NCBI RefSeq assembly: GCF_001477655.1
Contig: NZ_CP011266.1
Span: 1,534,001-1,598,000 of the forward strand
Direction of reading: 5' to 3'
Length of the DNA: 64,000 nucleotides
DNA from: Methanobrevibacter millerae
GTDB taxonomy: Archaea; Methanobacteriota; Methanobacteria; Methanobacteriales; Methanobacteriaceae
How positions within the stretch are numbered: the stretch's first letter is position 1; the number at the start of each line of letters is the position of its first letter. Below are positions 2,322-48,672 of this stretch, piece after piece. The notes beneath the pieces were generated by a model. The model made no database searches. It was not told the DNA's origin and saw nothing but the letters and a program-made list of their open reading frames with translations. Position numbers and translations under genes: made by a program.

Positions 2322-2699
2322 TTATTTAAAAAGCAATTTATCTTTGAAACTGCGTTTCATCTTGCCTTTAGTTTCTTCATTGAATTTAGTATCACCAAGA
2401 TCTTCATCAATACTAAACATGGCCAACTCATAGACAATTTTATTCAATGCTTGACCTTTTTTGGTCAATATGTATTCAACATCACGTTCATATCGGTCTG
2501 ATATTCTTTTAATCAAACCGTCTTTTTCCATTGCCTTTAAGCAGTTGCTTAAAACTTTATTAGATAAATTTGGTTTTCCTTGCTTGAACTCTGAGAAACG
2601 GGATTTACCGAAAAATAAATCACGAAGAATTTCGATTACCCATTTCTTTTTGAACAATCGCACTACCAAATCGATTGGACATTTGCTATAGGTATTCAT
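2322..2699 (-). CDS. HxlR-family transcriptional regulator 1
   Basis: Winged-helix DNA-binding protein of about 125 residues. The ATG at 2699 is preferred over the in-frame ATG at 2723 because GGGAGG lies 8 bases before it. HxlR hallmarks are the N-terminal CPID (Cys7), KKWVIEILRDLFFG, the recognition segment KPNLSNKVLSNCLK and the wing. In family members such as HypR and YodB the N-terminal Cys senses electrophile or disulfide stress; that role here is inference. It is a close paralogue of the regulator at 6211 and is divergent from a precursor-peptide gene across a GTAAC/GTTAC inverted repeat, so it probably controls that gene and itself. Confidence 0.9.
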   Translation of the reverse strand: MNTYSKCPIDLVVRLFKKKWVIEILRDLFFGKSRFSEFKQGKPNLSNKVLSNCLKAMEKDGLIKRISDRYERDVEYILTKKGQALNKIVYELAMFSIDEDLGDTKFNEETKGKMKRSFKDKLLFK

Positions 2700-2765
2700 T
2701 TTCAATTTCCTCCCAGTAATCATATAGGCTTTTTTATCATATATAAAGTTATCGGTATTTTATAG

Positions 2766-2783
2766 AGTAACTAAAAAGTTACC
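2766..2783. promoter_or_regulatory. Inverted-repeat operator between HxlR1 and peptide 2
   Basis: GTAACT (2767-2772) and AGTTAC (2777-2782) form a perfect 6-bp inverted repeat with a 4-base A-rich spacer. It lies between divergent TATA-like boxes: TTTATATAA near 2791 for the plus-strand peptide gene, and TTTATATAT near 2740-2750 on the minus strand for HxlR1. The same half-sites recur upstream of the second HxlR/peptide pair at 6110-6159. Confidence 0.65.
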
Positions 2784-2867
2784 AAAAGAATTTATATAAT
2801 AATATCAGAAGTTTTAATTGAAAGTTTTAGTAAAATAGGACTTTCAAGTATTTAAGAGGTGAAAGAC

Positions 2868-3029
2868 ATGTATAAACTAAATTCTTGGAATGAAAAAGAA
2901 AAGTTTAATTCATCAGAGATTGCGCAAAACATGGTAAGTGGACCATGCGGCAGTGATGTTTCAACAAGCTGCTGTGTGGATACAACAAAAATCAGCACAA
3001 GCTGCTGTATTGACACTACAGAAATGTAG
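2868..3029 (+). CDS. Second precursor peptide, Cys-Cys repeat type
   Basis: A 53-residue ORF with a good GAGGTGA site 7 bases before the ATG. Its N-terminus shares KLNSWNE and SS-x-IAQN with the CGSD-repeat peptide at 5801-6028, so the first ~21 residues look like a common leader. The following core has CGSD once (Cys27) and then two 11-residue repeats, STSCCVDTTK and STSCCIDTTE (Cys35/36 and Cys46/47). It lacks a membrane segment. It is divergent from HxlR1 and convergent with the maturase operon. I infer a ribosomally made substrate of the neighbouring radical SAM enzyme; the modification is unknown. Confidence 0.8.
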   Translation: MYKLNSWNEKEKFNSSEIAQNMVSGPCGSDVSTSCCVDTTKISTSCCIDTTEM

Positions 3030-3038
3030 ATCAATTAA

Positions 3039-3149
3039 ATCAAAACAACACCAATATATCTCAACCCCTCCTCTAAATCATATATTCCCAAATAATCAAA
3101 AAAATGTTGTTTTGATAAACACGAAAGGGGATTTTAAATAATCCCCTTT
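3039..3149 (+). terminator. 3' structured region after peptide 2 with strong hairpin
   Basis: Two inverted repeats lie between convergent transcription units. ATCAAAACAACA (3039-3050) is fully complementary to TGTTGTTTTGAT (3105-3116). AAAGGGGATT (3124-3133) is fully complementary to AATCCCCTTT (3140-3149) with a 6-base loop. Neither strand has a clean T-run directly after the second hairpin, so it may act in 3'-end stability or as a shared convergent terminator. Confidence 0.55.
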
Positions 3150-3159
3150 AAAAAAATAA

Positions 3160-3765
3160 TTATAAGCGTTCAATATTTTGCATTGGACACTTTTCAAAGC
3201 ATCTTCCACAGTGAAGGCAGTTTTCCTGAGGAATACAATATTTTTCACCTTCAACAGGAACATTCTGAGGACATACTCCCTTACATATTCCGCAGGCAAC
3301 ACAATTATCCCCTATTACAAAACCTTTAGGAGTTATTTTAGCATTCCCTAATGTGAATGTTTTTCTAAAAATAGGCTTTTGTGTCAAATCAAAAAATTCC
3401 ATTTCAGCATTTTCAATGCAGAACGGCTCTAAAATATAACGGGATTCCCCAGGATATACATTATTCAAGAACTTATTTTCATCAAACATCAAATCAATCC
3501 AATATTTTTGGTCATCCAACTGATATGCTTCACCAGAGATACGAATTGACTTGTTATCCTTTAGTGAAAGATAGGAAACCTTCGGATGATTAATGATTTC
3601 ACGATACACATCCTTTCCGCGTCCTGTCAAAAAATATATTTTTTCATCTTCAATATGCATTATATCAATAATTCTGGATTGGGGATTTCCATTTTCATCA
3701 ACCGTTGATAAAACTGCATCTATTACATCTCTTAATTGGTTAAAACAATCTTCTTTTGTTATCAT
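3160..3765 (-). CDS. FMN-binding split-barrel / ferredoxin fusion protein
   Basis: A 201-residue fusion. Residues 1-135 resemble the pyridoxamine-5'-phosphate-oxidase-like split barrel (GNPQSRIIDIMHI..., IYFLTGRGKDVYREI...HPKVSYLSL), which usually binds FMN or F420. Residues 150-201 hold two [4Fe-4S] motifs, CVACGICKGVCP (C155-C165) and CLHCGRCFEKCP (C183-C193). It is probably a cytoplasmic flavin-dependent redox protein fed by its own ferredoxin domain. Its ATG overlaps the stop of the MDR gene by 4 bases, so translation is likely coupled. As the last gene of the precursor-maturase operon, it could reduce or activate the peptide or supply electrons to the radical SAM enzyme; that is inference. 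Confidence 0.82.
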   Translation of the reverse strand: MITKEDCFNQLRDVIDAVLSTVDENGNPQSRIIDIMHIEDEKIYFLTGRGKDVYREIINHPKVSYLSLKDNKSIRISGEAYQLDDQKYWIDLMFDENKFLNNVYPGESRYILEPFCIENAEMEFFDLTQKPIFRKTFTLGNAKITPKGFVIGDNCVACGICKGVCPQNVPVEGEKYCIPQENCLHCGRCFEKCPMQNIERL

Positions 3766-4724
3766 ATTAATCTGAATATTATTTTTCCTTGTGCATTGTT
3801 ACTTTCCATTAACAAATGAGCTTTTGGAATGTCTTCCAGTGATGTGAAAACTCTTCCAATAGCCGGTTTAATGTCATTAATGATTATAAAATCAAAAATC
3901 TCATCAATAATATCCTGAGTAGGAAAATTAGAAAAGAATGAAGTTACATATTTTTTATATAAATGTTTTATTGGATCAAATCCGTCCAAATATTCAATTC
4001 CACCTAAAATTCCTGTCACACAACAGATTCCATCTTCTTCAAGTAAATTCAGTGAATCAATTAATGTTTTAGGTCCGATTAACTCCAAAATCTTATTGCA
4101 TGAAATATAGCCTGACAAATCTCCATCATCAACAACACATTCATCTGCACCACAATTTTTAAGTTTTTCAAATCTGTTTTCATTTCTTGAAGTTGCTATT
4201 ATTTTACATCCTACTGCACTAGCCAGCTGTATTGCAGTCAATCCCGTAGCACTAGTTGCACCCCTTACAAGCAGAGTATCCTCTTTTTTCAAATTTAATG
4301 TTGAAATTGATCCATAAGAAGTAAAATAAGTTTCAGGGATAGATATTATTTCTTCAAGAGTTAAATTATCAAAGGCATAATCCGGAATTTTAAATACATT
4401 CTTTTTAGGAAGCAGCGCATATTCAGCATAGCTGCCATCAAATAACCTTCCCATACCACCCATTAAAGCAACGATTTTGTCTCCTTTGGATAAATCACTG
4501 TTGGATTCATCTGCAATTTCACCAACACATTCAATTCCCGGAACTACAGGTAAGTTAATGTAAGGCTCATCTGCCTCATAATCCCTTAAAATTACTTCTG
4601 AGCGATTGATTCCAAAACCTATGATTTTAACTAAAACCCAATCCTTTTTGACTTTAGGTATATCTATTTCACTTACTTTCAAATCCTGTGCTTTACATGT
4701 TTTTTTTAAAACAATTGCTTTCAT
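3762..4724 (-). CDS. MDR-family NAD(P)H oxidoreductase (quinone-reductase-like)
   Basis: A 320-residue medium-chain dehydrogenase/reductase. It has an N-terminal GroES-like domain (VVPGIECVGEI near residue 62), a Rossmann nucleotide site with GATSATGLTAIQLA near 159, and no structural-zinc Cys cluster, so the zinc-independent quinone oxidoreductase branch fits best. The ATG at 4724, giving MKAIVLK as in the family, is preferred over one 24 bases upstream because it lies two bases after the radical SAM stop and follows an AGGA-type site. Substrate is unknown. The operon position suggests an accessory redox step on the peptide, or handling of a small molecule linked to it. Confidence 0.85.
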   Translation of the reverse strand: MKAIVLKKTCKAQDLKVSEIDIPKVKKDWVLVKIIGFGINRSEVILRDYEADEPYINLPVVPGIECVGEIADESNSDLSKGDKIVALMGGMGRLFDGSYAEYALLPKKNVFKIPDYAFDNLTLEEIISIPETYFTSYGSISTLNLKKEDTLLVRGATSATGLTAIQLASAVGCKIIATSRNENRFEKLKNCGADECVVDDGDLSGYISCNKILELIGPKTLIDSLNLLEEDGICCVTGILGGIEYLDGFDPIKHLYKKYVTSFFSNFPTQDIIDEIFDFIIINDIKPAIGRVFTSLEDIPKAHLLMESNNAQGKIIFRLI

Positions 4725-4726
4725 TA

Positions 4727-5755
4727 TTATCCTACTTCCTTCCAACATTGTGGATCTGGTGAATACATATTATGAGTATATCCATAGCTTACTGCAGGAC
4801 AACCTCTGCAAAATCTCAGCAATTCACATTTGCTGCATTTTTCAAATTCTTCGAAACGGCGATATTCATTCATTTTATCTCCAGTGAATATATCAAATAT
4901 TCTCTCTGTTAATGCATTGCCCACTTTGCTGTCCATTCTGCGGCAGGCAAAGACATCACCTGTTGGAAGTATTGTCAAATGACTGTTTCCACAGTTACAG
5001 CCATCATAGATGACATCATCTTTTAAATTTTGAGGTATTTTAAAAATTCCCTTTTCATATAGGAACAATGTCCATAAGTGATCTTTTAAATTAAAAAAGG
5101 TATTAGAATCTTTATATTCCTGATATTTCTGCCAAACATCATCCAATAAATTTTTATATTCTTCAGGAGTCATTTGTGCTGTTTTTTCAAAACTGGTCGG
5201 ACAATATCTTGCAAAACTAAACAATCCAACATCATTTTTTACAGCCTCGTCAATAATGCCTGTTATCTCTGAGATATTTGTTTTGGAAACTGTTGTCATG
5301 ATGCTTGCTCTTACACCTGCATCCTGTAAGGTTTTAACAGCATTTAAAGTTGAATCAAAAGATCCTGGTTTTCTGAAATAGTCATGAGTTTCTCGAAGAC
5401 CATCCAAAGAAAGCTGATACTGTCTGCAGCCTAATTCATTCAATCGACTGCATACGTCAGGAGTTAAATGAAAAGGGTTTCCCATGATATTGTAATAAAG
5501 TTTTCTATCATGAAGAGTTTCAAGTAAATCCCAAAAGTTAGGATGTAAAATTGGATCTCCACCAGTAATGGAAAAATATGGTCTGCGATTTGTTTTTTCA
5601 CACATCTCCAAACAGTTATCTAAAACGTGCTCCATTTCATCATAGCTCATTGTTACCAGTTCTTTATTATTGTCCTCTGAAAAAATATAACAGTGCTTAC
5701 ACCTTTGATCACAATCATCAAGTATATGCCATTGAAAAGCAAAAAAATCAGCCAT
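4727..5755 (-). CDS. Radical SAM/SPASM peptide maturase, ACGX-system type
   Basis: A 342-residue enzyme expected to cleave S-adenosylmethionine and modify the adjacent Cys-repeat peptides. The radical SAM cluster motif is CDQRCKHC (C15, C19, C22), followed by SITGGDP near 62-68. The C-terminal SPASM region has C253, C255, C271, C307, C310, C316, C319 and C337, enough for two auxiliary [4Fe-4S] clusters. GGAGTGAT lies before the start. It follows the CGSD-repeat peptide by 45 bases and a terminator-like hairpin. From memory, protein-family collections contain an 'ACGX system' radical SAM paired with an ACGX-repeat peptide, and this pair fits that description. Chemistry (thioether, epimerisation or other) cannot be read from sequence. 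Confidence 0.9.
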   Translation of the reverse strand: MADFFAFQWHILDDCDQRCKHCYIFSEDNNKELVTMSYDEMEHVLDNCLEMCEKTNRRPYFSITGGDPILHPNFWDLLETLHDRKLYYNIMGNPFHLTPDVCSRLNELGCRQYQLSLDGLRETHDYFRKPGSFDSTLNAVKTLQDAGVRASIMTTVSKTNISEITGIIDEAVKNDVGLFSFARYCPTSFEKTAQMTPEEYKNLLDDVWQKYQEYKDSNTFFNLKDHLWTLFLYEKGIFKIPQNLKDDVIYDGCNCGNSHLTILPTGDVFACRRMDSKVGNALTERIFDIFTGDKMNEYRRFEEFEKCSKCELLRFCRGCPAVSYGYTHNMYSPDPQCWKEVG

Positions 5756-5783
5756 GAAATCACTCCAAAAAAAGAAATAAAAA

Positions 5784-5802
5784 AAGATTATTGAATAATC
5801 TT
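5784..5802 (-). terminator. Attenuating hairpin between precursor and maturase
   Basis: AAGATTATT pairs with AATAATCTT around a single base (in practice a 7-bp stem with a 5-base loop), overlapping the precursor stop codon. On the minus strand it is followed by TTTTTTTATTTCTTTTTTT, then the maturase ribosome site. A partial terminator here would make the precursor more abundant than the enzymes. Confidence 0.65.
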
Positions 5803-6028
5803 AGAATTTAATATCACTGCCACATGCAGTGTTAATGTCACTACCACAAGCAGAAGCAACAACATCACTACCACAAGCGGTATTAACATCAGAACCACAA
5901 GCAGTGTTAATGTCACTACCACAAGCAGAAGCTACAACATCGCTGCCACATGCGGTTGAAATTACATTTTGTGCAATTTTAGAACTAAAATATGTTTCAT
6001 TTTCATTCCATGAGTTCAATTTAAACAT
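5801..6028 (-). CDS. CGSD-repeat precursor peptide (ACGX-like)
   Basis: A 75-residue peptide with GGAG 8 bases before its ATG. Residues 1-21 (MFKLNSWNENE..., ending IAQN) look like a leader shared with the peptide at 2868. The core carries six CGSD motifs, with Cys at 27, 36, 44, 52, 61 and 69 (spacing 9, 8, 8, 9, 8). A 17-residue unit ACGSDVVASACGSDINT occurs twice, separated by ACGSDVNT, and the DNA shows the same tandem duplication, so the core grew by repeat expansion. It is first in the operon with the radical SAM, MDR and split-barrel/ferredoxin genes. I infer a multiply modified ribosomal peptide; function unknown. Confidence 0.88.
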   Translation of the reverse strand: MFKLNSWNENETYFSSKIAQNVISTACGSDVVASACGSDINTACGSDVNTACGSDVVASACGSDINTACGSDIKF

Positions 6029-6109
6029 ATAATTTTCTCCTTAATTTTTAAATAAAAGAATTTTTCTTTTATTAATTTTACTTTAATTTATTCAATTATA
6101 AATAAATTA

Positions 6110-6159
6110 AGTTACTTTAAAGTAACTATTAACCATTAAGTTACCTCTAAGTAACTTAA
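6110..6159. promoter_or_regulatory. Two palindromic operators between CGSD peptide and HxlR2
   Basis: Palindrome A (6110-6127) is a perfect 18-mer, AGTTAC-TTTAAA-GTAACT. Palindrome B has arms TTAAGTTAC (6136-6144) and GTAACTTAA (6151-6159) with a 6-base spacer. Their centres are 29 bases apart. A abuts the TATA-like TTTATAATTG of the minus-strand peptide operon (about 6092-6101); B lies just upstream of TATTTATAAA for HxlR2. One operator per promoter suits a self- and cross-regulating dimeric HxlR protein. Confidence 0.75.
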
Positions 6160-6210
6160 AATTAATAAACAAATATTTATAAAAATTTAATTAACAAAAG
6201 AGGCATTTAA

Positions 6211-6582
6211 ATGGAAAAAGAAGAAAAAGCATTAATATGTCCTATTGAAATAGCCATGGAACATATCAACAGAAAATGGGTTATCCAAATCATAAGGGAC
6301 ATGTTTTTTGGCAAAAAAAGATTCAATGAATTTAAGGAAGGAAAACCTAATCTTTCCAATAAGGTTTTAAGTAATTGTCTTAAGGAAATGGAAGAAAATG
6401 GTTTGATAACACGGAAAACTAATGGTGGAATAGAATATAAATTAACTGAAAAAGGTCTGGCTTTAAATAAAGTACTGTATGAATTGGCAATGTTTACCCT
6501 AAATACTGATATTAACAACAGATATTATGATGACGAAAATAAAAAAGAATTAAAAAAAGTTTTTAAAGAAATTTTATTATAA
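6211..6582 (+). CDS. HxlR-family transcriptional regulator 2
   Basis: A 123-residue winged-helix regulator and paralogue of the protein at 2322: both contain RKW/KKW-VI-x-I-x-RD-x-FFGK and the identical stretch KPNLSNKVLSNCLK. An N-terminal CPIE cysteine (Cys10) is conserved with regulator 1 and could be redox-sensitive. An AGAGG site precedes the ATG. It is transcribed divergently from the CGSD-peptide operon across two palindromes. Its 3' end overlaps the convergent ArsC-like gene by 6 bases. Confidence 0.92.
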   Translation: MEKEEKALICPIEIAMEHINRKWVIQIIRDMFFGKKRFNEFKEGKPNLSNKVLSNCLKEMEENGLITRKTNGGIEYKLTEKGLALNKVLYELAMFTLNTDINNRYYDDENKKELKKVFKEILL

Positions 6583-47547: not shown

Positions 47548-48672
47548 TTATTTCATTGCCAAATCCATAATGCTGAATGCTTCGCCTTCTTTTCTTTCAG
47601 AAGGTGCTCCCATTCCAAATGCTGATTTGGCGAATTCCTTATTCATCCTTTTAGAAACTTCACCAAAAATCATTTTATATGCAGTACATTGAGGATCTAC
47701 TGCCTGTGGAGTTTGATATGCAACAATAGCATTGTAAGGACAACCTCCTTCGCAGTATTTAACATACCTGCATTTTTTACAATTTTCATCGACATAATCC
47801 CGGAATTCCTGAAGTTTTGCCCATGCATCAGATTCCTTTAAGTCATCAAAGCTAGGGTTAGTCGAAACATTTCCCAAAATATAGTCATCCATTCCAACAA
47901 ATCTGTAGCAAGGATAAATCGAACCGTCGGAGCCTACTGCCAGTGTCGTTCCAATGCAATCTGCAAAGGTACAGAGTGTTCCCCTTCTTCTTAAACTGGA
48001 TTTGCAGATATGATCCAAGTCCATTATTGTAAACTTATCCAAATCATAGAGATACTTATCCAACCATTCAATTAGCAGTTTTCCATGTTCTTCCTGGTCT
48101 AGTGCCCATGGATCTGCATTATCTCCCCTTAGGGAAGGCAATGCCGCATGAATTTTCAGATTCATTTTTTCTGCCTTAAAGAATTCATATAACTCATCAG
48201 AGAAATCTTTTGAATAATCGGTTACAGTCAATACAAAGTTGATTATAAGTCCTTTGCTTTTAGCGAGTTCATATTTGGCCATGGTTTTATCGTAGTAACC
48301 TTCTCCCCTTTGATAGTCATTAATTTCTTTTGGACCATCTATGCTTGTACTGACAACAACATTATATTCAACAAACAAATCAATCAGTTCATCAGTCAAA
48401 AGCCAAATATTACTCTGAAGGGAAAATCCTTCCAAATTAGGCAATTTAGATAGCTTTTCAAGAGCATTTTTGTAAAAGTCATATCCTGCAAGAAGAGGTT
48501 CGCCACCATGAAAAGTGAAATGAACTTTATCATCCCTAAAATCACCTAACCAGTCAATTATCTGATCTATAATTTCAATATCCATCATTTCCTTTTTATT
48601 TTCAGAACCCCAACAATATTTACAATTTGATGGACAATTGAGTGTAGGGATAATCATCACATGAAATGTCAT
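47548..48672 (-). CDS. Radical SAM/SPASM enzyme, methanogen peptide-modifying type
   Basis: About 374 residues starting MTFHVMIIPTLNCPSNCKYCW (an upstream ATG at 48681 is also possible). The radical SAM motif is CPSNCKYC, with HGGEPLLAG and DGPKEINDYQRG as in anaerobic sulfatase-maturase-like enzymes. SPASM cysteines appear in CTFADCIGTTLAVGSDG...CYRF and CKKCRYVKYCEGGCPY, with a last one in DPQCTAY. It forms a three-gene operon with a zinc-ribbon protein upstream and the 43-residue Cys-rich peptide downstream. Likely a peptide or protein modifier; target unproven. Confidence 0.88.
   Translation of the reverse strand: MTFHVMIIPTLNCPSNCKYCWGSENKKEMMDIEIIDQIIDWLGDFRDDKVHFTFHGGEPLLAGYDFYKNALEKLSKLPNLEGFSLQSNIWLLTDELIDLFVEYNVVVSTSIDGPKEINDYQRGEGYYDKTMAKYELAKSKGLIINFVLTVTDYSKDFSDELYEFFKAEKMNLKIHAALPSLRGDNADPWALDQEEHGKLLIEWLDKYLYDLDKFTIMDLDHICKSSLRRRGTLCTFADCIGTTLAVGSDGSIYPCYRFVGMDDYILGNVSTNPSFDDLKESDAWAKLQEFRDYVDENCKKCRYVKYCEGGCPYNAIVAYQTPQAVDPQCTAYKMIFGEVSKRMNKEFAKSAFGMGAPSERKEGEAFSIMDLAMK

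Follow-up and report, generated by a model that had tools for sequence, protein, structure and literature searches.

We analyzed a 64-kb window (the whole stretch of DNA under study) from Methanobrevibacter millerae NZ_CP011266.1, a genome assembled as one 2.54-Mb contig, and focused on the locus at window positions 2322–6582, which encodes a radical S-adenosylmethionine (SAM) enzyme together with two candidate precursor peptides, P1 and P2, and two HxlR regulators. The genes of the locus are as follows:

2322–2699, minus strand: HxlR1, HxlR/DUF24 regulator paired with P2 (PF01638; possible longer start at 2723)
2868–3029, plus strand: P2, second candidate precursor peptide, 53 amino acids (shared leader, one PCGSD and two SCC[IV]DTT units)
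3160–3765, minus strand: PNPOx-like split-barrel flavoprotein with two 4Fe-4S motifs (PNPOx_N, 41.5 bits, and Fer4), here called the flavin/ferredoxin fusion
3762–4721, minus strand: MDR-superfamily reductase, quinone-oxidoreductase-like (ADH_N and ADH_zinc_N)
4727–5755, minus strand: radical SAM/SPASM putative peptide maturase of the rSAM_ACGX family, 342 amino acids (TIGR04340; CX3CX2C and SPASM)
5801–6028, minus strand: P1, candidate ACGSD-repeat precursor, 75 amino acids (seven CGSD units; repeats and leader kept in relatives)
6211–6582, plus strand: HxlR2, HxlR/DUF24 regulator paired with P1 (PF01638)

On the minus strand the gene order is P1, radical SAM enzyme, MDR reductase and flavin/ferredoxin fusion, and the spacing (45 nt, 5 nt and a 4-nt overlap) makes it likely that these four genes form a single transcription unit. 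Divergent pairs flank this operon, with HxlR1(-)/P2(+) on one side and HxlR2(+)/P1(-) on the other. An original prediction made from the sequence had described a tight minus-strand operon with an HxlR/peptide pair on each side; we found every gene where it had been placed, and the domain calls agreed. Both regulators exceeded the PF01638 cut-off of 20.8 bits (HxlR1, 67.5; HxlR2, 65.4), while the best NCBIfam model for the MDR protein, TIGR02824, scored 142.5 bits, below its cut-off of 296.8. The arrangement recurs in relatives from three other genus-level groups of the Methanobacteriaceae, which, together with the co-occurrence of peptide and enzyme described below, argues that it is not due to chance.

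The enzyme scored 574.1 bits against TIGR04340 (rSAM_ACGX; cut-off 400) and, judged by this score, is a clear member of NCBI's uncharacterized rSAM_ACGX family; the likeness to the ACGX system that the original prediction had pointed out was therefore well founded. The next-best model was SbtM (TIGR04082; 197.9 bits, below the cut-off of 350), of which the enzyme lacks ~195 N-terminal positions, and the third was heme b synthase (119 bits). Models of the ranthipeptide maturase PapB (NF047865) and of StsB gave 66.5 bits (cut-off 340) and 72 bits (cut-off 625), respectively. Cysteines of both the core and the SPASM region are invariant across 46 archaeal and bacterial relatives. A 46-sequence fold model had a pLDDT of 88.5 and its predicted structure matched anSME, SuiB, SkfB, TigE and CteB; it was used instead of a 19-sequence model that was poor in the SPASM part. 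A second, distant radical SAM protein (25% identity) lies in the same window at ~47683–48639 on the minus strand (L002).

Present as a single copy in the M. millerae genome, the enzyme was found above cut-off in 31 of 139 Methanobacteriaceae genomes. Two more carry a broken or partial copy, giving an enzyme-bearing set of 33 genomes and a comparison set of 106 others. Using a model built from P2, which also recognizes P1, we detected peptides in 31 of the 33 enzyme-bearing genomes and in 1 of the 106 others (Fisher p ~2e-27, ignoring shared descent). The lone genome with a peptide and no enzyme, G072, holds only a leader remnant, and the two enzyme-bearing genomes missed by the model have a divergent P1 (G120) or a P1 cut by a contig end (G093). 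This distribution indicates that peptide and enzyme almost certainly belong together, and it does not bear out the outcome that would have refuted the original prediction, enzyme homologues never found with either peptide: P1- and P2-type genes accompany the enzyme in the Methanobacteriaceae, and ACG-repeat peptides precede the bacterial enzyme.

P1 adjoins the maturase gene, 45 nt upstream, a placement kept in relatives. Its homologues carry 4 to 11 Cys-Gly units each, with Gly directly after 172 of 173 Cys and a regular Cys-Gly-x-acid unit at 146 of them. Against the ACGX-repeat peptide model TIGR04341 (cut-off 28), four bacterial precursors scored 30.6 to 77.8 bits, P1 10.2 bits and a close homologue 18.0 bits; we dropped this match as proof for P1, which falls below the cut-off. 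Bacterial precursors have Cys-Gly at 305 of 334 Cys, and for 155 of the 334 there is no Asp or Glu within five residues; the Cys-to-acid spacing is 3 in most P1 sequences and 4 or absent in bacterial precursors. Apparent extra P1 genes in two genomes (G115 and G126; L165 and L166) were set aside, as both run to contig ends and are likely a single locus split within its repeat.

P2 was found in ten Methanobrevibacter genomes of the window's genus group, all of which have the enzyme. The ten homologues share the P1-type leader, and every one of them carries SCC[IV]DTT units, two to three in number; one CGS[DN] is present in nine, and most of their Cys lie outside Cys-Gly. At the DNA level, the SCC[IV]DTT pattern was confined to those ten genomes plus a single match elsewhere that reads Trp-Cys-Cys. 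Three enzyme loci (L056, L063 and L064) have P2 and no P1 nearby, and this persistence is the strongest argument for regarding P2 as a substrate independent of P1; one of these genomes (G052) has a separate P1 locus (L041) besides its P2 locus (L063). Based on its leader and conserved repeats, P2 is a second, distinct class of putative precursor, which is new here. As a separate observation, the L063 enzyme (G052, 4169–5179) has an in-frame TAA soon after CX3CX2C, reflecting either a pseudogene or an assembly error.

In a wider scan, we identified at least 584 relatives of the enzyme. The best 80 of these include Bacteroidales, Clostridia, Thermodesulfobacteriota and a spirochaete, with Methanobrevibacter and Methanosphaera as the named archaeal relatives. 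Among 62 bacterial loci drawn from the best 80, 59 have an ACG-repeat peptide (three or more repeats) no further than 1.5 kb from the enzyme, and tblastn placed HxlR nearby in 51, SirTM in 21, a macrodomain in 10 and the same flavin/ferredoxin fusion in 10. The same searches found an MDR reductase at 35 loci, a nitroreductase at 25 and both at none. Pfam agreed with the nitroreductase, SIR2, Macro and HxlR identities. The two reductase states require at least nine changes on the enzyme tree, so their mutual exclusion does not reflect one inherited split, and MDR reductase and nitroreductase probably fill the same role. Two of the P2-only loci have FMN-reductase-like genes beside the enzyme (L056, 6391–7632; L064, 8376–9074) that replace the MDR and flavin/ferredoxin genes. 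DUF1848 proteins accompany macrodomain and SirTM genes downstream of certain ACGX enzymes in Firmicutes (L082, L085 and L125).

The divergent regions contain the following additional features:

2767–2782, no strand assigned: operator GTAACTAAAAAGTTAC, HxlR1/P2 divergent region (pattern match)
6111–6126, no strand assigned: operator GTTACTTTAAAGTAAC, HxlR2/P1 divergent region (pattern match)
6140–6155, no strand assigned: second operator copy GTTACCTCTAAGTAAC, HxlR2/P1 region (pattern match)
2818–2847, plus strand: predicted P2 5'-leader hairpin (TTGAAAG...CTTTCAA), just upstream of the ribosome-binding site
6051–6073, minus strand: inverted repeat AATAAAAG...CTTTTATT, immediately preceding the P1 ribosome-binding site

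A tighter pattern, GTWACYNNNNRGTWAC, had three matches in the window, all at this locus, and none in 100 shuffles. The strict form, GTWAC-N6-GTWAC, is present in 22/22 HxlR2/P1 regions and in 5/10 HxlR1/P2 regions (9/10 with one relaxed base per half-site), and by chance would be expected in 0.01 of these 32 regions. Genome-wide there are five operator sites, three at the locus and two elsewhere, and a reversed-pattern control gave four. Given that count, the evidence for the operator rests on its gene context and on the conservation of that context. The strict operator was absent from the Bacteroidales regions scanned, and related TTAC...GTAAC sites occur in some Firmicutes regions. The N-terminal Cys, which in the HxlR family senses electrophiles and oxidants (PMC7835342, PMC6943732), is kept in 74 of 75 aligned HxlR proteins. 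The original prediction had proposed paired HxlR control, and the one operator common to both divergent regions points the same way; control by HxlR proteins through GTWAC-N6-GTWAC sites is highly probable. In the leaders, a long stem is predicted at 10/10 P2 loci; covariation gave it no support, with shuffles equaling the observed score, which may be due to the sequence being largely conserved. A hairpin is also predicted at the P1 inverted repeat and in many, although not all, P1 leaders.

The fourth operator site (G000:C1:217891-217906) lies between a third HxlR gene and a divergent Zn-Macro-SirTM pair (L179), and the fifth (~G000:C1 1222329; L180) separates a PNPOx-like gene from a stop-containing nitroreductase frame. 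Of 30 relatives scanned, 20 have a site of this operator type upstream of their macrodomain gene, and the Zn-Macro family is above cut-off in 31 of 33 ACGX genomes compared to 42 of 106 others, ignoring shared descent. We consider it likely from these site and gene distributions that the ACGX locus and Zn-Macro-SirTM share a stress regulon. Where a catalytic His is usual, the L179 SirTM carries Gln (FATQGDYG). SirTM/Zn-Macro systems have been tied to oxidative stress, and their targets beyond GcvH-L are stated to be unknown (PMC4518038, PMC11490716); the gene and operator links reported here supply a directly testable candidate. Matured ACGX peptides could be the targets of stand-alone SirTM/Zn-Macro pairs, as a counterpart of bacterial lipoylated GcvH-L, with SirTM ADP-ribosylating the matured peptide, for example at Asp/Glu or at modified Cys, and Zn-Macro removing the ADP-ribose. 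We regard this as an unlikely outcome.

With about an even chance of being correct, the comparative evidence can be read as describing a stress system inside the cell, under HxlR control, whose products are cysteine peptides modified by the radical SAM enzyme. HxlR1 and HxlR2 would bind the GTWAC-N6-GTWAC sites, and electrophiles or oxidants hitting their N-terminal Cys would alter transcription. The shared leader, M[FY]KxNxWN...KIAQ, would direct P1 and P2 to one enzyme, which may modify Cys, most likely at Cys-Gly, into thiooxazole-type rings. The MDR reductase (elsewhere nitroreductase) and flavin/ferredoxin protein could either handle the redox steps of the maturation or render the stressor itself harmless, and the product, rich in thiols, would remain inside the cell and act there as a sink for metal or electrophiles. 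SbtM forms a thiooxazole by taking away four hydrogens (PMC11002830), and MNIO enzymes produce Cys-Gly-repeat captophorins, which bind copper and contain several 5-thiooxazoles (PMC12668002). Because of the constant Cys-Gly, SbtM as the nearest other model and the captophorin chemistry, we favor multi-heterocycle thiol peptides: most likely, the locus represents an anaerobe's radical SAM route to such peptides against metal or electrophile stress. For the individual parts, a thiooxazole product is conceivable at somewhat less than an even chance, and metal binding by the peptides is doubtful.

Several observations weigh against this interpretation. The enzyme is well under the SbtM cut-off (198 versus 350), the P2 SCC[IV]DTT repeats lack Cys-Gly, so that thiooxazole chemistry leaves them unexplained, and SbtM ring formation in vitro was reported without a named partner reductase (PMC11002830). 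For the regulon, the similar number of reversed-pattern sites in the genome means that chance alone could account for a few sites per genome, and the operator may be a general feature of archaeal HxlR proteins with no dedicated regulon. Many genomes that lack ACGX have Zn-Macro/SirTM as well, making the link one-way.

Among other explanations, the enzyme might instead install thioether cross-links of the sactipeptide or ranthipeptide type, joining Cys to neighbors such as the Asp of CGSD, to yield a cross-linked stress peptide. Its nearest solved relatives do include the SPASM maturases SuiB, SkfB, CteB and TigE, and most P1 Cys sit in a regular Cys-Gly-x-acid unit, but scores to PapB and StsB are low, and the varying Cys-to-acid distance leaves no constant acceptor; we judge this chemistry unlikely, if well worth considering. 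Alternatively, P2 could be a degenerating P1 paralogue that is not a substrate, with HxlR1 an unrelated local regulator. Confinement to ten genomes of one genus group, the enzyme-less leader remnant in G072 and the majority of P2 Cys outside Cys-Gly would fit such decay, yet SCC[IV]DTT, leader and operator type are kept in all or nearly all ten genomes, and P2 persists at three enzyme loci without a nearby P1, which makes degeneration improbable.

The peptides might also be secreted antimicrobials or signals, with the reductases and HxlR proteins representing an ordinary quinone-detoxification set alongside. Radical SAM peptide pathways are frequently bacteriocin pathways, and HxlR-family regulators govern nitroreductases and azoreductases in quinone detoxification (PMC6943732). 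Nevertheless, the window locus contains no transporter, peptidase or immunity gene, none recurs in bacterial neighborhoods, and no transporter or peptidase cluster was found to recur in four or more of 42 such neighborhoods; the absence of a recurring export or peptidase cluster led us to set aside a bacteriocin. The reductase follows the enzyme, and its strict alternation between MDR and nitroreductase, repeated across the tree, is at odds with a bystander set, so secretion is very improbable. Compared with the original prediction, our analysis adds the wide bacterial spread, the putative regulon with SirTM/Zn-Macro, the swapping of reductases between loci and the recognition of P2 as a separate precursor class, identified in rumen and gut methanogens. 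Comparative evidence thereby assigns the ACGX family, widespread in gut and sediment anaerobes, to a regulon and a likely cellular context and suggests what its chemistry may be.

The closest known counterpart is the computationally named ACGX system (TIGR04340 plus TIGR04341), in which, as here, an enzyme above cut-off adjoins a Cys-Gly repeat peptide; no characterized ACGX product was found in the literature searched, which covers few subscription journals. The present locus differs in that P1 falls under the peptide-model cut-off, its ACGSD units lack the PKP-type linkers seen in bacteria, an additional precursor with SCC[IV]DTT units has its own HxlR, the operon includes the flavin/ferredoxin fusion and the operator is common with SirTM/Zn-Macro. 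The SbtM thio(seleno)oxazole pathway (TIGR04082; Lewis et al. 2021, as covered in PMC11002830) likewise uses a radical SAM/SPASM enzyme on Cys, and after TIGR04340 the SbtM model outscores all other maturase models by far (198 bits), but our enzyme is below its cut-off with a shorter N-terminus. Captophorins and bufferins (MNIO pathways, PMC12668002) are similarly small, stress-linked peptides with many Cys-Gly repeats; captophorins are oxidized by MNIO enzymes, whereas no MNIO domain occurs among this locus's proteins, and a product chemistry in common with captophorins is, by this analogy, only a hypothesis. SirTM/Zn-Macro operons (PMC4518038, PMC11490716) are related through the same operator at HxlR-Zn-Macro-SirTM and through genes inside bacterial ACGX loci, although GcvH-L and its lipoyl ligase, part of the known systems, are not among the recurrent neighbors here. 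Finally, HypR, YodB, CatR and HxlR of Bacillus subtilis (PMC6943732, PMC7835342) are also HxlR/DUF24 proteins with an N-terminal Cys and an association with nitroreductases or related reductases, compared to which the regulators of this locus are archaeal, duplicated and divergent from peptide precursor genes.

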